A DNA stretch of 64,000 nt, from assembly GCF_900112605.1 (NCBI RefSeq), contig NZ_FOMJ01000007.1, positions 62,001 to 126,000 on the forward strand, read 5' to 3'. The notes under the pieces were generated by a model. It was not told where the DNA came from. It did no database searches and was given only the letters and a program-made list of their open reading frames with translations. This stretch comes from Thiohalospira halophila DSM 15071. GTDB lineage: Bacteria; Pseudomonadota; Gammaproteobacteria; Thiohalospirales; Thiohalospiraceae. Positions 7,883-27,814 of the stretch are shown one piece after another; position 1 is the first letter of the stretch, and each line of letters begins with the position of its first letter. The position numbers and the translations under genes are program-made.

Positions 7883-9100
7883 ATGCTGACCCGAGCGCAG
7901 ATCGAAGAGGCCCGCCCCCGGTCTAGTATTTACGAGCTGTACGACTCCGAGGGCCTGGTCCTCCGCGTCCTGCCCTCCGGGACGCGGAGCTGGGCGGTCT
8001 ACTACCACGAGCGCGGAAGGAAGAGGCGGGAGACGGTGGGCCGCTGGCCCGATATGGGGCTGCGAGAGGCGCGGCGCCAGCGGGACCAGGTCCGCGCCCG
8101 GGCGGCCGGGGCCGACGCGGTCACCGTGGAGGCCTTCGCCCGGGAGTACCTGTCGGCGTGGGCGCGTCCCGCCAAGCGCTCCTGGCGCGAGGATGCGCGG
8201 ATCCTGGAGCGCGAGATCGTGCCGGCCATCGGCGACCGCCCCGTCGCCACCCTCACCCGCCGGGACTGCGTGGCCGCCGTCGACGCCGTACGGGAGCGCG
8301 GCGCCCCGGCGATGGCGTCCAAGACCCACGCGGTCCTCCGTCGACTCCTCCAGGTCGCCGTGGAGCGCGGCGTCAGGGATGACAACCCGGCCGCCCGGAT
8401 CCGCCTCCCGGCCGCCCAGAGCCGTGACCGCGTGCTGACCATGGACGAGGTCGCCGCCCTGCGCGCCGAGCTGGCCACCTCCACCGCCCTGCCCCGCATC
8501 GCCCTGGAGCTGATCCTCGCCACCGGCCAGCGCGGCGGGGAGGTCCTGGAGATGGCCGCCTCCGATCTGCAGCTGGGTGATGGCCTTTGGGAGATCCCGG
8601 CGGCGAAAGCCAAGAACGGCCACGCCCACGTCGTGCCCCTGACGGCCTGGGCGGTGGAGCTCATCCGCGAGGCGAGGCGGATCCGGTGCAGCGAGCGGGT
8701 GATCCCCATCTCCGGCGACACCCTGCGCCACGCCATGCGCCAGGCCGTGGAGGCGGCGAACCTGGAGCGGTCAACGCCCCACGACCTCCGGCGCACCGTG
8801 GCCACCCACCTGGGCCGACTCGGCCACGGCCGCGCCGTCCAGGACCGCATCTTGAACCACGTCGACCAGTCGGTGGGCGGGATCTACGACCGCTACGACT
8901 ACCTCCCGGAGCAGCGCGCGGCCCTGGAGGCATGGGAGGCCGAGGTCACCGGGGCAGGCAATCGCGATCACCAGGGGGAGGGGGTTGTTCCACAGGGAGT
9001 CACGGCGGCACCAGAGCGGCACCACGAGGCACCGGCCGATCCGCAGAGCGGCGCGGCCTGCATGACAGAAGCGGCAGTCATAGGGGATGAGGACGAATGA
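7883..9100 (+). CDS. int: Tyrosine-family integrase (DUF4102 type)
   Basis: 405 aa. The N-terminal arm-binding domain (SIYELYDSEGLVLRVLPSGT) is of the DUF4102 type used by P4-like and many phage integrases. The catalytic domain (about 185-345) has Arg217 (TGQRGGEV), His300 and Arg303 (HDLRRTVATHLG), a second His326 (NHVDQS) and the nucleophile Tyr335 in GGIYDRYDY. It should mediate site-specific integration. It sits between replication and packaging genes rather than at a visible end of the prophage. Its stop overlaps the Mor-like gene by ATGA. Confidence 0.92.
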   Translation: MLTRAQIEEARPRSSIYELYDSEGLVLRVLPSGTRSWAVYYHERGRKRRETVGRWPDMGLREARRQRDQVRARAAGADAVTVEAFAREYLSAWARPAKRSWREDARILEREIVPAIGDRPVATLTRRDCVAAVDAVRERGAPAMASKTHAVLRRLLQVAVERGVRDDNPAARIRLPAAQSRDRVLTMDEVAALRAELATSTALPRIALELILATGQRGGEVLEMAASDLQLGDGLWEIPAAKAKNGHAHVVPLTAWAVELIREARRIRCSERVIPISGDTLRHAMRQAVEAANLERSTPHDLRRTVATHLGRLGHGRAVQDRILNHVDQSVGGIYDRYDYLPEQRAALEAWEAEVTGAGNRDHQGEGVVPQGVTAAPERHHEAPADPQSGAACMTEAAVIGDEDE

Positions 9101-21215: not shown

Positions 21216-22277
21216 ATGGCCACCTTCTACACCATCCTGACCGACGTCGGGCAGAACAAGATCGCCAACGCCATCGCCGTGGGCGAGACCATCGAGATCA
21301 CCGACCTGGCCGTGGGCGACGGCGACGGATCCCTGCCGACGCCCGACTCCAGCTTCGAGTCCCTGGTCAACGAGGTCCGCCGGGCGAGCATCAACTCCAG
21401 CCAGACCGACCCGGATAACCCGAGCTGGATCGTGGTCGAGCAGGTCCTGCCGCCGGACGTCGGCGGCTGGACGATCCGCGAGGTGGGGATCTTCGACGTC
21501 GACGGCGATCTGATTGCCTACGGCAACTACCCGGAGACCTACAAGCCGGTCCTCGACGAGGGCAGCAGCCGCACTCAGACGGTCCGGTTCATCACCGAGG
21601 TCTCGGACACCAGCGCCGTCACCCTCAAGGTCGACGCCTCCGTGGTCCTGGCCACCCGCGAGCTCGTCCAGCGCGAGGCCCGGGCCGACTACATCACCGA
21701 CGCCACCCTCGCCTCCGGCGTCAGTACCGGCGACGCCGTCTACTGGGACCACGACGCCGGCGAGTACAAGCGCGCCATCGCCGACGGCTCGGCCGCCTCC
21801 CACCCCGTCGGACTGGCCGATGCCGTGAACGGCCGCGTCTACTCCGGCGGGCTGGCCGAGGGCCTGCTTACCGGCCTCACCGCCGGCGCCACCTACTACC
21901 TCAGCGGATCCGACGCCGGCGCGCTGATCACGGACCGGCCGGCGTACCCGGTAGAGGTGGGCGTGGCCCACGGCGCCGAGAGCCTGCGGATCGGCATCCA
22001 CGCCGACACCCTGCGCCGCGAGAGCACCGGCGACCCCAACGGCAACCTCGCCGCCGATCGCCTCTACGAGGCCGCCTGGGACACCTCCACCGCCACCCCG
22101 GTCCTCTACCTCTCCACCGAGGCCGACGGCACCGTGGACGGCACCACCTGGACCCCGGCCGCGGACCTCTGGGCCGCGCTCTCGGCGTCCGGCGCCGGGT
22201 CTGCCCTGGCCACGTTCAGCGACGCCAAGCGCTTCACCCGGGACGCCGACGGTCAAATCTACCTGGAGGACTACTGA
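21216..22277 (+). CDS. Tail fibre protein (phage tail-collar/DUF3751-like)
   Basis: 353 aa. The N-terminal 160 residues (FYTILTDVGQNKIANAIAVG, EITDLAVGDGDG, WTIREVGIFDVDGDLIAYGNYP) are the baseplate-attachment domain of P2/Mu-type fibres. The rest is strand-rich with repeated Thr/Gly/Ala turns. It ends without a lectin domain, and the separate DGR variable protein two genes downstream probably supplies the receptor-binding part. Confidence 0.85.
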   Translation: MATFYTILTDVGQNKIANAIAVGETIEITDLAVGDGDGSLPTPDSSFESLVNEVRRASINSSQTDPDNPSWIVVEQVLPPDVGGWTIREVGIFDVDGDLIAYGNYPETYKPVLDEGSSRTQTVRFITEVSDTSAVTLKVDASVVLATRELVQREARADYITDATLASGVSTGDAVYWDHDAGEYKRAIADGSAASHPVGLADAVNGRVYSGGLAEGLLTGLTAGATYYLSGSDAGALITDRPAYPVEVGVAHGAESLRIGIHADTLRRESTGDPNGNLAADRLYEAAWDTSTATPVLYLSTEADGTVDGTTWTPAADLWAALSASGAGSALATFSDAKRFTRDADGQIYLEDY

Positions 22278-22278
22278 G

Positions 22279-22599
22279 ATGATTGGGAATCCCCGACACC
22301 GCCGTACCCTGCATGACTGGCAGGTCGCCCACTCCATGGCCCTCTCCGGCGAGATGCCCACGGCGAAGATGGCCGAGGAGTGGCGCCGCCTCCGAGATGG
22401 ACGATTCGCCTACTTCTTCGACCGCGAGCTGGGGGCCGACGAGAACCCGGACGGCGACCCACCGGAGTACATCGTCCTGACCGACGAGGACGGCGCCCGC
22501 CGTCAGCAGCGTCGGCAGGAGGATCCGAACAGCGAACTATCCCGCCTGGGCCTGACGGCCGCAGACGTGGACGCCTACATCGCCGAACTGGAGGCCTGA
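22279..22599 (+). CDS. Small protein between fibre and DGR variable protein
   Basis: 106 aa. Residues 5-60 (RRTLHDWQVAHSMALSGEMP) are followed by an acidic, Arg-containing helical C-terminus (SRLGLTAADVDAYIAELEA). Position after the fibre is that of fibre chaperones, but it shows no recognised family. It starts 1 bp after the fibre stop and ends 3 bp before the variable protein. Confidence 0.6.
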   Translation: MIGNPRHRRTLHDWQVAHSMALSGEMPTAKMAEEWRRLRDGRFAYFFDRELGADENPDGDPPEYIVLTDEDGARRQQRRQEDPNSELSRLGLTAADVDAYIAELEA

Positions 22600-22602
22600 C
22601 CC

Positions 22603-23655
22603 ATGCGCATGATCACCGCAGACGGCCCGGCCGCCCTGGAGCAGGCTGGGCACGTCGAAAAGAGCGACAACGGCGACCTTCTCAACACCCCGGAGGCCGC
22701 GATCAACATCGGCGGACTGGCTGGCCAGGGTTACCGGCTGGACGCGGTCACCGACCTAGACCCCACGACCGAGGAAGACGGCACCGTTACCAGCCTGGCA
22801 GTGGGCGACGACGTGTACTTCTACGCCGTCCCCTCCGGCGTCGGGGACGGCCGCGCCAACCTGGTCGCATCGAAGAACGCCACCACGCCCGACGGGTTCA
22901 CGGCGGCCACGAGCCGGAAGTTCAGCGGCTTCCACTTCGGCCGAACCCGCCCCCTGGACGACGCCCACGCCCACGTGAAGACCTACACCCCCGCCGAGGA
23001 GATCGTCTGGAACTCGGTCTGGGACCTTCTCAACCGCCCCTCCGCACCACCGGAGGGGATGGTCCGGCTGCCGTCCGGGTGGTGGGTCACCATCTACCTG
23101 CTCTCGGTGGGCTCCGGAAGCGGCGCGAACGTCGTGCCCGTGAGCCGGTACAACGCCACCCCGATCAAGGACGACGTCTACGCCCGCCGGGATCTCGGCA
23201 TCATCGCCGGCCGGGGCGGTTATGTCCTCCCGTGGGCGGGTCTCTTCGACGAGTACGCCGAGGGCGCCCCCGAGGGAGAGGACGCTGCCAACGACACGGC
23301 CTGGGCCGATACCAGCAATTCTGGGCCCGCGACTACCGGCGCCGTCGCCAAGGCCGTCAGCTCCCACAACGTGGTCGACGCCGTCGGCAACCTCTGGGAC
23401 TGGCTGGACAACCAGCACAACACGGGGACGAACTACTCCGACGACCGGACCGTGGTCGAAGTCGGCATGTACTCCGCCGACCTGCGCGGCGAGGTTTACC
23501 ACGACAACTGGCGCTCCGCCATCGGCGGCGGCGACTTCGACGACGGCTCCCGCGGCGGGGCCGGCTGCGTGTACTGGAATGCGAAACCGTGGGTCGCGAA
23601 TGGCTATGTCGGGGTGCGTGGCGCCAGTGGCCCCCTGAGGGCACGCAGTGCCTGA
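22603..23655 (+). CDS. DGR variable protein (C-type-lectin-fold tail tip)
   Basis: 350 aa. The N-terminal part is probably the attachment domain, and SRKFSGFHFGR (104-114) is a motif seen in DGR variable proteins. The C-terminal lectin-like/FGE-like domain has VGNLWDWLD (261-269) and WRSAIGGG, with variable residues 311, 314, 324, 327, 331 and 335 plus 343-345. Variable codons correspond to TR AAC/AAT/ACG triplets. The protein should display an adaptable ligand-binding face at the tail tip. Its last 8 bases overlap the GTG start of avd. It likely partners with the fibre gene two positions upstream. Confidence 0.93.
   Translation: MRMITADGPAALEQAGHVEKSDNGDLLNTPEAAINIGGLAGQGYRLDAVTDLDPTTEEDGTVTSLAVGDDVYFYAVPSGVGDGRANLVASKNATTPDGFTAATSRKFSGFHFGRTRPLDDAHAHVKTYTPAEEIVWNSVWDLLNRPSAPPEGMVRLPSGWWVTIYLLSVGSGSGANVVPVSRYNATPIKDDVYARRDLGIIAGRGGYVLPWAGLFDEYAEGAPEGEDAANDTAWADTSNSGPATTGAVAKAVSSHNVVDAVGNLWDWLDNQHNTGTNYSDDRTVVEVGMYSADLRGEVYHDNWRSAIGGGDFDDGSRGGAGCVYWNAKPWVANGYVGVRGASGPLRARSA
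23510..23635 (+). repeat. Variable repeat (VR)
   Basis: 126 bp matching the template repeat at offset 543. There are nine substitutions, all opposite TR adenines (VR positions 23533, 23542, 23572, 23581, 23593, 23594, 23605, 23630, 23633). A GC-rich 24-base identical tract (23606-23629) near its 3' end is the likely initiation-of-mutagenic-homing (IMH) region. The repeat encodes the last 47 residues of the variable protein's lectin domain. Confidence 0.95.
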
Positions 23656-24043
23656 GCCGGCCGCCCGGCAGGGCGGCCTTGAACTCCAGGCGCGGGCCGA
23701 GGAGCTGTGGCACGAGCTGGCGGGGCCAATTCAGCGCATCCCCAGATCCCACCGCTACCGCACCGGCGCCGACCTGGAGGACCAGCTCCGCCATCTGGTG
23801 GACCTGGTCATCGAGGCCGCGAGCTCCGGGCAGCCTAGCCGGGTCTACCGTCTACACGAGCAGACCCGAAAGGTGGAGTGGCGGCTCGCGGCGGCGGCAA
23901 AGCAGGGGCTATTGCGCCCCGCCGCCGTCGGCCGCGTCTCCCGCCCTCCAGTAGAAGACGACCCGCGAGACCGTGGCGGCACCCTCTATCAGATCAAGGC
24001 GATGGTCGGTGCCTGGCGGGAGCGGGTCAAAAGCAAGGGCTGA
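23648..24043 (+). CDS. avd: Avd-like DGR accessory protein
   Basis: 131 aa from the GTG at 23648, which overlaps the end of the variable protein by 8 bp. Predicted four helices (residues 11-30, 40-60, 64-88, 112-128), strongly basic, with QRIPRSHRYRTGADLEDQL and the LVDLVIEAAS helix. These match the Avd/S23 four-helix-bundle family that forms a positively charged barrel binding the RT and template RNA. It is essential for cDNA synthesis in BPP-1. Its first codons lie over the VR-associated hairpin. Confidence 0.82.
   Translation: MPEPAARQGGLELQARAEELWHELAGPIQRIPRSHRYRTGADLEDQLRHLVDLVIEAASSGQPSRVYRLHEQTRKVEWRLAAAAKQGLLRPAAVGRVSRPPVEDDPRDRGGTLYQIKAMVGAWRERVKSKG
23659..23678. promoter_or_regulatory. 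DGR hairpin/cruciform after VR
   Basis: GGCCGCCC (23659-23666), loop GGCA, GGGCGGCC (23671-23678) gives a perfect 8-bp stem with a 4-base loop, 23 bp after the end of VR. In BPP-1 a hairpin/cruciform of the same dimensions follows the IMH and promotes homing. The GGCA loop fits the G-R-N-A tetraloop type reported there. It lies in the start of the avd gene. Confidence 0.72.
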
Positions 24044-24052
24044 GAGGGTTTC

Positions 24053-24178
24053 GGCGCTCCGCCATCGGCGGCGGCAACTTCGACAACGGCTCCCGCGGCG
24101 GGGCCGGCTGCGTGAACTGGAATACGAAACCGTGGAACGCGAATGGCAATGTCGGGGTGCGTGGCGCCAGTGACCACC
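24053..24178 (+). ncRNA. Template repeat (TR) of the DGR
   Basis: 126 bp, identical to VR except at nine adenines. It contains the AAC/AAT triplets expected for a DGR template (AAC at codon-equivalents 311, 314, 324 and 331; AAT at 326, 333 and 335; ACG at 327). It is transcribed as part of a structured RNA that the RT-Avd complex copies with adenine misincorporation. It starts 9 bp after the avd stop. Confidence 0.94.
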
Positions 24179-24187
24179 ATTTGAGAG

Positions 24188-24207
24188 GGCGCCGAACGGT
24201 CGGCGTC
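24188..24207 (+). ncRNA. Stem-loop in TR-RT spacer
   Basis: CGCCGA (24190-24195), loop ACGG, TCGGCG (24200-24205) forms a 6-bp stem, extended by a G-T and a G-C pair to 24188/24207. It lies 10 bases after TR, in the spacer that in BPP-1 RNA is needed for self-priming cDNA synthesis. Confidence 0.55.
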
Positions 24208-24272
24208 ACCCAGAATCCCTCAGGGGGTCAGCTTCTCAGTCCCGGTGCCCGCAGGGCGCCAAACCGATCCGG

Positions 24273-24319
24273 GCGGGCCGGCGCGAGTAGGGAGACCGAA
24301 AGCCCCGGCCCGCTTTTTT
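24273..24319 (+). terminator. Intrinsic-terminator-like hairpin between TR and RT
   Basis: GCGGGCCGG (24273-24281) and CCGGCCCGC (24305-24313) pair perfectly, followed by TTTTTT (24314-24319). The 23-base loop is long for a terminator. It could define the 3' end of the template RNA or tune RT expression, since the RT ribosome-binding site (GAGGAGGAG) follows at once. Confidence 0.68.
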
Positions 24320-24333
24320 GAGGAGGAGAACGC

Positions 24334-25374
24334 ATGGGCAGGAAGGCCAAGAACCTCATCGAAGAGATCGCGCACTGGGACAACCTCGTCGCAGCTCATC
24401 GGCTATGCCGGCGCGGAAAGAGCGGGAGCCAGGAGGTAGCCCGATTCGACGCCGACCTGTGGACCCACCTCGGAGCCCTTCAGAACGAAATGCTCTGGAG
24501 CATGTATCGGGTGGGTGATTACCGGCATTTCCGCGTCTACGACCCCAAGCGGAGAGACATTGCCGCCGCCCCGTACCGCGACCGGGTTGCCATGCAGGCG
24601 GTCTGCCGAGTTTGTGAGCCCATCTGGACCCGAGCGCTCATTGCCGATACCTACGCCTGTGTTCGCGGGCGCGGCGCCTATCAGGCCGTCTTCCGGCTTC
24701 AGCAGTGGATGCGCCGTTATCGGCGCCGGGGCGAATCGGCCTGGGCCCTGCACATCGACGTTTCCAAGTTCTTCGACAGCGTCCCGCACTCGGTCGCCAA
24801 GCGCGTCATCCGCAAGCGCATCGCATGCCGCCGCACGCTCGCCGTACTGGACGAGGTCATAGATAGCGCGGAGCCAGGCGGCCCGGCCGTCGGCCTTGGG
24901 ACCGGGAACCTGCCCAGCCAATGGATCGGCAACCTGGTGCTGAATGAGGTCGACCAGAAGGCCAAGCGCGAGATGGGCGTGCGCCATTACATGCGGTACA
25001 TGGACGACATCCTGGTCCTGAGCAGCGACCGCGCCCAGCTCCGGGCCTGGCGCGACCAGATAGAACAAGAGCTGGCGGCCCTGGGCCTGCGCGCCGGGAA
25101 AGTGAACATCAGCCGAGCCGAGGGCGTGACCTACGTCGGCTATCGAGTCTGGCCGCACGCATTCCGGGTAAAAGGCCAGACTCTTCGCCGCATCCGCCGA
25201 CAGATGCGCGGCCTGAGGAACAGCCGGGAGGAGGGACGAGTAAGCCCGGCCGCCGCGCGGGACACCCTCCAATCCTGGAGGGCGCACCTCATCCAGGGTC
25301 AGTGCCGGGGATTCTGGCTGCGGCGGGTGGGTGAGTGGCGCCGGGCCTCTGCCCGAGACACCCCCTCCGAGTAA
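24334..25374 (+). CDS. DGR reverse transcriptase
   Basis: 346 aa, ATG at 24334 behind GAGGAGGAGAACGC. The palm has HIDVSKFFDSV (residues 140-150, catalytic Asp142) and YMDD (222-225, second and third catalytic Asp). Between them GTGNLPSQ (189-196) carries the SQ ending characteristic of DGR and group-II-related RTs, in place of the retroviral SP. PYRDRVAMQAV (80-90) is RT motif 2. The C-terminal basic thumb ends at residue 346. There is no maturase, RNase H or integrase domain, as expected for a DGR RT. It copies TR into mutated cDNA together with Avd. Confidence 0.96.
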   Translation: MGRKAKNLIEEIAHWDNLVAAHRLCRRGKSGSQEVARFDADLWTHLGALQNEMLWSMYRVGDYRHFRVYDPKRRDIAAAPYRDRVAMQAVCRVCEPIWTRALIADTYACVRGRGAYQAVFRLQQWMRRYRRRGESAWALHIDVSKFFDSVPHSVAKRVIRKRIACRRTLAVLDEVIDSAEPGGPAVGLGTGNLPSQWIGNLVLNEVDQKAKREMGVRHYMRYMDDILVLSSDRAQLRAWRDQIEQELAALGLRAGKVNISRAEGVTYVGYRVWPHAFRVKGQTLRRIRRQMRGLRNSREEGRVSPAAARDTLQSWRAHLIQGQCRGFWLRRVGEWRRASARDTPSE

Positions 25375-25427: not shown

Positions 25428-25670
25428 CTATTCGTATTGCGCAGAGATAGTGGATGGCCCGATGCTTATGCGCGGCGCTCCTTGCATCCACGGCTTACCC
25501 AAGTCGCTTCTGGCGACATCGTCAATCAGCCTCTCTGGCGAGTATCCCGGTCTTGCCCCGCCGGAAGTATGTAGCACCAGAAGATGATCACCCGATCCAT
25601 CGTCTGTCGTCTTCCCCCGAATCTTCGCCGGCCCTTTGTCCATGTACGTTACTTTAAGCTCGTATGGCAT
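25428..25670 (-). CDS. Hypothetical 80-aa protein, lower-GC, divergent from a membrane protein gene
   Basis: The ATG at 25670 follows GGAGGG with good spacing (minus strand). The product begins MPYELKVTYMDKGPAKIRGK and has a basic and glycine-rich middle. No family recognised. It is the only minus-strand gene in the late region and starts 76 bp from a divergent gene. Base composition of this segment is more AT-rich than the surroundings, suggesting separate acquisition. Confidence 0.65.
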   Translation of the reverse strand: MPYELKVTYMDKGPAKIRGKTTDDGSGDHLLVLHTSGGARPGYSPERLIDDVARSDLGKPWMQGAPRISIGPSTISAQYE

Positions 25671-25746
25671 AATCCCTCCAGCAAGTTGGCGTTATGATGA
25701 TAACATCACTAAACGACCGCGTTTTCCCGGAGAAGGGGTTGCAGCA

Positions 25747-26466
25747 GTGGAAGACCACAACCTCCAAGCCAAGCGTCGAAACCTGATCGTCTCGTCGGTA
25801 CTTCTGACCATCTTTCACCTTGGTGGTGGCCACCCGGCCGATGACAAAACCGGGACCCTTGGCCTTATGTTCGTCTCCCTAGAGTATCCGACCGTCGCCA
25901 TTGTTGGAGCCTGGGTCGCGTGGATCTACTTCGTGTGGCGCTTCTTGTCTGATGTAAGAGTGAGGTCAATCGGAGGTAATGATTCTACATCTTTCAGGAT
26001 AGATCTAGCGAGGCGAATATTTACAAGCGGTGAAGATGACCAGTTGTTGTACAAGGTAGATGGATTTGAAAGGGGCAACAATCACCCGCCTTTCTTTTAT
26101 GGCAATGGGGTATCATTCAAGGATGGAGAGAGAGTGCTGGATGAATCAAAAAATGGCCGCCCTCTGCCGACGCAAGGCGGAAATCAAGAGTTTGCCAAAA
26201 AGCTAAAAATAAAATACGGCCTTTTTGGAATAAAGGTGCAGGCCCGTCAGCCTAAATATCAAGGCGATGGAAGCATGAGCGAGCCATTCGTTGTCCCTTA
26301 CACAAAGATCATCGCGAGAAGCGAAGAGGGGTCGCGCATACCGCCACGGATATTCCACGACGCGATCGTAAGAGACCCGGGATTTTCAGAGACAGAGATT
26401 CCGAAGGCAGTAATGTTTATGCCAGTAGGCGCACTTGTCTTCTGGGTCCTGCTCTACTGCCTGTAG
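25747..26466 (+). CDS. Membrane protein of unknown function, lower-GC cargo gene
   Basis: 239 aa from the GTG at 25747 (GGAGAAGG upstream). An N-terminal segment (LIVSSVLLTIFHLGGG), a second near residue 50 (YPTVAIVGAWVAWIYFVW) and a C-terminal one (MFMPVGALVFWVLLYCL) are likely membrane helices flanking a polar domain. Codon use and base composition are distinct from neighbouring genes. It could be a superinfection-exclusion or other lysogenic conversion gene, but this is a guess. It is paired divergently with the 80-aa gene. Confidence 0.65.
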   Translation: MEDHNLQAKRRNLIVSSVLLTIFHLGGGHPADDKTGTLGLMFVSLEYPTVAIVGAWVAWIYFVWRFLSDVRVRSIGGNDSTSFRIDLARRIFTSGEDDQLLYKVDGFERGNNHPPFFYGNGVSFKDGERVLDESKNGRPLPTQGGNQEFAKKLKIKYGLFGIKVQARQPKYQGDGSMSEPFVVPYTKIIARSEEGSRIPPRIFHDAIVRDPGFSETEIPKAVMFMPVGALVFWVLLYCL

Positions 26467-26596: not shown

Positions 26597-27814
26597 ATGG
26601 CGGAGTCCTATCTCCACGGTGTAGAGGTCGTCGAGATCGACGGCGGCACTCGCCCGATCCGCACAGTCCGCTCGTCTACCATCGGGATCGTCGGCACCGC
26701 GCCCGACGCCGATGCGGAGGCGTTCCCCCTAGATACTCCGGTTCTGGTGGCGGGCAGCCCCACCGAGGCGGCGAAGCTCGACACCGTGGGCGATGGCGCC
26801 GGCACCCTGCCGGCGGCCATGGACCTGATCCTGGAGCAGACCGGCGCCCTGGTGGTCGTGGTCCGCGTCACCGAAGGGGCGGACGACGCCGAGACGGTGA
26901 GCAACATCATCGGCGGGACCGACTCCAGCGGCAACCGCCAGGGCGTCGAGGCCCTGCTCGATGCGCAGAGCGAGGTCGGATTTACCCCGCGCATCCTCGC
27001 GGCCCCCGGCGGCGTCGGGACCGGCTACGTCGATCGGGACGACACCACCGATGACATTACCGGCGCCCCGGTGACCACCGCCCTGGAGTCCAAGGCGCAG
27101 CAGCTGGCCGCCATGGTCTACGCCGACGGCCCGAACACCACTGATTCCGATGCGCAGACCTACCGGGACCTGTTCGGCTCCGCCCGGGTCATGGTCTGTG
27201 ACCCGATGGTCCGCGTGTGGGACACCGAGGCCAGCGCCTACGTCTCCCGCTCCCTCTCCTCGGCGGCCGTTGGCCTCCGCGCCCGCGTGGACGCTGACCG
27301 GGGCTTCTGGGTGTCGATCTCCAATAACTTGATCTACGGCATCTCCGGGACCGACCGCCCGATCGATTTCACCCTGGGCGACCCGAACAGCCGCGCGAAC
27401 CTCCTCAACGAGAAAGAGGTCAGCACGGTCATTCAGCAGGAGGGGTTCCGCTTCTGGGGTGGCCGCACCACCTCCAGCGATGCCAAGTGGGCGTTCGAGC
27501 CCGTCCGCCGCACGGCGGACATGGTCAACGACTCCATCCTCCGCGCCCACATGTGGGCCGTGGACCGGGGCATCACCAAGACCTTCGTCGAGGACGTGGT
27601 CGAGGGCGTGAACGAATACCTCCGCTCGCTCAAGGCGCGCGGCGCGATCCTCGGCGGCGAGGCCTGGGCCGACCCGGCGCTGAACACCGAGGACGCGCTC
27701 AAATCGGGCCACCTCTACATCGACTTCGACTTCACTCCGGTCTACCCGGCCGAGCGGATCACCTTCCGCTCCCACCTGGTGGACGGCTACCTCTCCGAAG
27801 TAATCGAGGGCTAA
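26597..27814 (+). CDS. Tail sheath protein (P2 FI family)
   Basis: 405 aa. ESYLHGVEVVEIDGGTRPIR at the N-terminus, TAPDADAEAFPLDTPVLVAG, and the C-terminal YIDFDFTPVYPAERITFRSHL are P2 gpFI/contractile sheath hallmarks. The sheath contracts to drive the tube through the host envelope. It is followed by the tube protein, the usual order. Confidence 0.94.
   Translation: MAESYLHGVEVVEIDGGTRPIRTVRSSTIGIVGTAPDADAEAFPLDTPVLVAGSPTEAAKLDTVGDGAGTLPAAMDLILEQTGALVVVVRVTEGADDAETVSNIIGGTDSSGNRQGVEALLDAQSEVGFTPRILAAPGGVGTGYVDRDDTTDDITGAPVTTALESKAQQLAAMVYADGPNTTDSDAQTYRDLFGSARVMVCDPMVRVWDTEASAYVSRSLSSAAVGLRARVDADRGFWVSISNNLIYGISGTDRPIDFTLGDPNSRANLLNEKEVSTVIQQEGFRFWGGRTTSSDAKWAFEPVRRTADMVNDSILRAHMWAVDRGITKTFVEDVVEGVNEYLRSLKARGAILGGEAWADPALNTEDALKSGHLYIDFDFTPVYPAERITFRSHLVDGYLSEVIEG

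Follow-up and report, generated by a model that had tools for sequence, protein, structure and literature searches.

Does the tail operon of a Thiohalospira halophila DSM 15071 prophage carry a working system for diversifying one of its own tail proteins? This question was raised by the cassette at positions 22603–25374 of the window, the whole 64,000-nucleotide stretch of DNA that was analysed. The element was almost certainly a diversity-generating retroelement (DGR) of the Mtd type (BPP-1-like), complete and very probably functional, located in the tail operon of a prophage with a contractile tail. The first-pass annotation had proposed that all DGR parts were present in the order variable protein (VP), VR, Avd, TR and RT, and ORF calls and a repeat search, which gave the same ORFs and the same 126-nt repeat, bore out this order to the coordinate.

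All features of the cassette lay on the + strand. The VP gene (22603–23655) contained the VR (23510–23635) at about codons 303–344 of 350, and was followed by the gene of Avd, the accessory variability determinant (23648–24043), the TR (24053–24178), a non-coding TR–RT spacer (24179–24325) and the RT gene (24334–25374). Upstream were a P2 gpI-like gene, a tail-collar fibre gene with a P2 gpH-like N-terminus (21216–22277, +; Pfam PF12571, E=2.6e-57, and many PHROG tail-fibre families) and an ORF of 106 residues (22279–22599, +), which had no matches in Pfam, NCBIfam or PHROG and had a 118-residue ORF at the equivalent place in the related element L003. Downstream was the tail sheath gene (26597–27814, +; Pfam Phage_sheath_1C, E=5e-23; phrog_23, E=1.5e-123). 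The cassette was thus located between the tail-fibre genes and the sheath gene, with the VP two genes after the fibre, as had been claimed at first. The whole genome contained a single RT gene and a single TR/VR pair; a genome-wide search for a second RT or extra VRs found none, and the VR was the only other copy of the TR. The Rfam scan matched tRNA alone.

The gap of 1.2 kb between the RT and the sheath, absent from the first-pass annotation, contained an ORF of 276 residues (25636–26466) with a TTG start and hydrophobic stretches. Its GC content was about 50–54% against 66–72% in the surroundings. No matches were found in Pfam, NCBIfam or PHROG and no relative among the phage records, and the ORF was missing at the equivalent place in L003. 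It looks like an inserted cargo gene.

The VR and TR formed a direct repeat of 126 nt with a spacing of 543 and an identity of 93%. All nine mismatches were located at TR adenines, where the VR letter was G (5), T (3) or C (1), and this pattern placed the element in the DGR class. Nine mismatches placed at random would all hit the 23 adenines of the 126-nt TR with a probability of 5e-8, and the corresponding value for the seven mismatches within the 120-nt core was 2e-6. The other two mismatches, 23630 and 23633, were located where the TR/VR identity ended, and may represent ordinary divergence beyond the IMH (initiation of mutagenic homing). The VR was identical to the TR at every non-adenine position of the core, which indicated that no drift had accumulated since the last conversion. 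Twelve VR codons, up to 23629, contained 21 TR adenines, mostly in AAC or AAT codons, giving about 10^12 potential protein variants. Only one of the variable codons, AAA at codon 328, could reach a stop codon, and six VR codons now differed from the TR.

The prophage was recorded in IMG/VR as UViG_2595698212_000001, extending from about C7:55597 on the contig to position 33714 of the window. Its head genes were of the lambda type (GpA terminase, lambda portal, S49 protease, protein D and protein E), and its tail genes were of the P2 type (V, W, J, I, H, sheath, tube FII, U and D). Two integrase-type genes were found in the left arm, one at L080:5597–6631 (G000:C7:55596–56630, − strand) and the other at 7883–9100 of the window (+ strand). 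A flanking host gene, encoding dihydroorotate dehydrogenase, showed only 53% identity to its H. neutriphila counterpart.

These features bear on the alternative that the DGR was formerly active and is now frozen in a defective prophage, with the TR/VR differences as a relic of past retrohoming. The search for att repeats gave only chance-level matches of 12–16 nt, none of convincing length, and this, together with the two integrase genes of the left arm and the low-GC ORF of 276 residues apparently inserted between RT and sheath, is consistent with a defective element. However, the VP, Avd and RT ORFs and all cis elements were intact, the head and tail operons also looked intact, and the drift-free core of the VR argues against a long-silent element. 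We therefore consider a frozen DGR unlikely. For the copy in the window, activity is suggested by this intactness, because this exact element was represented by a single copy.

Natural variation in related elements gave a view of the process beyond this single copy. When the window element and five relatives were considered together, TR-adenine sites were changed at 65 of 148 positions (34 G, 19 T and 12 C) and non-adenine sites at 0 of 572; because the 120-nt segments had been picked for their match, the lack of change at non-adenine sites was partly selected, whereas the contrast between adenine and non-adenine sites was not. The metagenome elements L018 and L021 had identical TRs, and their VRs differed at 15 of 26 adenine sites and at 0 of 94 other sites, while their VP genes were 4.6% different outside the VR. 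This pattern is the mark of mutagenic retrohoming at work in the sister lineage, and for the lineage of the window element the process is well supported. The proposal that the tip protein is continually diversified thus applied to the sister elements, on the adenine-only VR differences of L018 and L021, and extends to the window copy by inference only. Among the loci used, L017 and L081 were one and the same prophage record in IMG/VR. At site 23630, the first TR adenine past the identical GC-rich stretch, the VR had G in the window element, L018 and L019, and A in L003, L021 and L022. At the next TR adenine, all six elements had C in the VR. The transfer of cDNA may end about here.

The VP was related to Mtd, the major tropism determinant of BPP-1, at the levels of family, sequence and structure. 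It matched Pfam mtd_2nd (PF21916) over the second domain (E=3.4e-17), the tail protein family phrog_11262 (E=6.8e-42) and, in a sequence search of the PDB, Mtd itself (E=4.9e-10), with the variable region in register with that of BPP-1 Mtd. A profile of 45 VP members found all six Mtd crystal sequences, with E-values down to 1.7e-33, over positions 54–343. An AlphaFold model from the 45-sequence alignment had a pLDDT of 92 and a pTM of 0.90, and an earlier model from nine sequences (pLDDT 43) was set aside. The best Foldseek matches of the model were five Mtd structures (E about 1e-21, TM 0.65–0.69). Weaker matches were formylglycine-generating-enzyme-fold proteins and two DGR variable proteins, TaqVP and Treponema variable protein 1, which are consistent with a C-type lectin fold. 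Both the second and the CLec domains were therefore homologous to those of Mtd, and the VR was located at the 3′ end of a target gene with a C-type lectin fold, in agreement with the lectin-fold variable protein of the first-pass annotation. Apparent in-frame stops in the VPs of three relatives were rejected as ordinary stop codons, beyond which the match had been extended.

Family, structure, phylogeny and natural variation supported the VP as an Mtd-like lectin-fold protein diversified by a complete DGR. By analogy with BPP-1, it would be a putative receptor-binding protein placed at the tail tip, with a role in receptor switching. Diversification of the VP for a non-receptor purpose, such as a structural tail subunit or an immune decoy, is very improbable, since the VP was homologous over residues 54–343, with the VR in register, to Mtd, a proven receptor-binding protein, and since its gene was located in the tail operon after the fibre gene.

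The RT contained both YMDD and the SQ-type motif 4, read as GNLPSQ in the ORF, as had been noted at first. The best PDB match of the RT was 8ub7, BPP-1 bRT (E=3.5e-44), and the RT also matched phrog_1423 (E=2.4e-103). In a tree of 60 rows, made by a quick method with no bootstrap, the RT was placed among Mtd-type DGR RTs (24 rows, SH-aLRT 99) with BPP-1 next (88), and the RTs of the window element and of all TR/VR-bearing loci were split from the non-DGR RTs of the relatives (SH-aLRT 97). The first-pass annotation had said that a position with group II introns or retrons would refute the DGR reading, and the tree did not give such a position. The alternative that the RT belongs to a group II intron or to a retron or defence system, and lies only by chance next to a duplicated stretch of the tail gene, could draw on the strongest NCBIfam match of the RT (group_II_RT_mat, E=1.8e-26, yet 93 bits against a cut-off of 300). 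It has a negligible probability and was refuted by the adenine-only TR/VR differences, by this split in the tree, by motif 4 and by the BPP-1 bRT control, which gave the same off-target matches.

The Avd was more divergent. It matched NCBIfam DivGenRetAVD with E=4.9e-9 at 36.5 bits against a cut-off of 80, and Pfam at 17.3 bits against a cut-off of 40, both below the curated thresholds, yet the match to the Avd family phrog_3206 (E=5.7e-10), the gene position and the alignment with BPP-1 Avd (26% identity) agreed in identifying it as Avd.

The cis elements of the BPP-1 system were recognisable and conserved. The probable IMH (23609–23629, +) was the GC-rich 3′ end of the VR, identical to the TR, and stopped where the identity broke at 23630/23633; its boundary was placed by analogy with BPP-1 (PMC3240598). 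In BPP-1, homing depends on a GC-rich, GRNA-looped hairpin directly after the VR (Guo et al. 2011, PMC3240598), and target sites of this type have a GC-rich hairpin of 7–10 bp with a 4-nt GRNA loop, 4–34 bp after the VR (PMC3240598). The window element contained such a hairpin or cruciform at 23659–23678 (+), GGCCGCCC-GGCA-GGGCGGCC, with a stem of 8 bp starting 24 nt past the VR end. Within the 64-kb window, no other GRNA hairpin with an 8-bp stem occurred on the + strand, and the − strand had none. Since it was located inside the 5′ end of avd, the hairpin DNA was also coding. In the relatives, the sequence and length of the stem varied and the GRNA loop was constant; in some more distant Mtd-like loci, no such hairpin was found within the 60 nt scanned.

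The TR–RT spacer was 147 nt long, non-coding and conserved, with helices at 24188–24195/24200–24207, 24221–24226/24232–24237, 24244–24250/24254–24260 and 24275–24284/24302–24312. In the consensus fold of eight related sequences, 94.7% of cells were paired and 14 of 38 pairs had double-sided changes, although the covariation rested on few independent events because five of the eight sequences were close to one another. None of 500 shuffles scored as high, and slid structures were at most 50% paired. The spacer of BPP-1 recruits bRT–Avd and supplies the priming adenine (PMC12875486), and by analogy the spacer RNA of the window element is a candidate for RT/Avd binding and priming.

If the biochemical steps follow those of BPP-1, the avd–TR–spacer transcript would fold via the spacer, which would recruit the RT–Avd complex and prime cDNA synthesis. 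The RT would copy the TR with misincorporation opposite adenines. The VR of the Mtd-like gene would then give way to the mutated cDNA, with the GC-rich 3′ end (IMH) and the GRNA-loop hairpin as guides, and the TR would stay unchanged. The product would be a tail-tip protein with a C-type lectin fold and up to 12 varied codons, or about 10^12 protein sequences, and the varied tip could let the phage population track host receptors.

In comparison with BPP-1 (mtd-avd-TR-brt), the window element shared the gene order, the Mtd-homologous target, the Avd and the DGR RT, in addition to adenine-biased TR/VR differences, a GRNA-loop hairpin after the VR and a TR–RT spacer (PMC3240598, PMC12875486). 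Identities over the best tblastn pieces were about 29% for the VP and 34% for the RT. The hairpin started 24 nt after the VR, inside avd, in the window element and about 4 nt after the VR in BPP-1. The tail operon also differed from that of BPP-1, since it was one for a contractile tail of the P2-like kind and included a sheath gene.

The mosaic of lambda-like head and P2-like tail, which the first-pass annotation had set apart from BPP-1, was real but not novel, since the Vhmlvirus phages VHML and VP58.5 were arranged alike (PMC10612066). The VHML genus has a P2-like tail and a DGR in a genome otherwise like lambda/N15 (PMC10612066). The architecture of VHML/VP58.5 (terminase, portal, protease, decoration, head, P2-like baseplate, fibre, SUMF1-annotated VP, Avd, RT and sheath) corresponded to that of the window, and 12 of their 12 TR/VR differences were at adenines. 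However, the VP58.5 VP did not come up among the tblastn relatives of the window VP, and the VP58.5 RT belonged to a different DGR branch.

The prophage element L003 of Halorhodospira neutriphila DSM 15116 was orthologous to the window element and had the same order of gpJ/gpI, fibre, small ORF, Mtd-like VP, Avd, TR, RT and sheath, with identities of 76% for the RT and 51% for the VP and with 14 of 14 TR/VR differences at adenines. It differed in the 10-bp hairpin stem and in lacking the 276-residue ORF. A literature search for DGR together with Halorhodospira returned no papers. The Chromohalobacter phage YPCBV-1 also had an Mtd-like VP (47% identity), an Avd, an RT (47%), a GGCA-loop hairpin and 14 of 14 TR/VR differences at adenines, but it is a Mu-like transposable phage, and its DGR is located at the right end instead of ahead of the sheath gene. 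DGRs were reported in two marine Vibrio phages by Benler et al., with five phage VPs structurally homologous to Mtd (PMC6199706).

When IMG/VR was searched with the VP alignment, 507 Mtd-like relatives were obtained, and of the 80 loci kept, most of those with enough flank contained both an RT and a TR/VR pair with an adenine bias. A separate set (L087, L088, L092–L096 and L099) had Mtd-like VPs with 47–50% identity to the window VP, and no RT, Avd or TR/VR was found in the available flanks. The RT was also absent from five whole records of 18–22 kb in this set, which may be fragments. L093 and L096 had a common 3′ flank and different VR-like C-termini, hinting at a remote or lost DGR.

The evidence leans slightly towards the view that the window element is one of a coherent and widespread sub-lineage within the Mtd-type DGRs, found on contractile-tailed phages of both the P2-like and the Mu-like kind. 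This sub-lineage would have an RT branch of its own, and its other marks would be a hairpin with a GGCA/GACA loop downstream of the VR and a conserved spacer RNA of several helices. It would carry tropism switching well beyond Bordetella phages and would offer natural sequence variation to define the DGR RNA. The relatives gave natural covariation for the TR–RT spacer RNA, whose role is known mostly from work on a single phage, together with natural evidence for a system active outside Bordetella. The general picture of DGRs is unchanged: the window element is a fresh example of the known Mtd-type family in a genomic setting of a known kind, in which the BPP-1 mechanism appears on a contractile tail, clean and complete, with each cis element recognisable.
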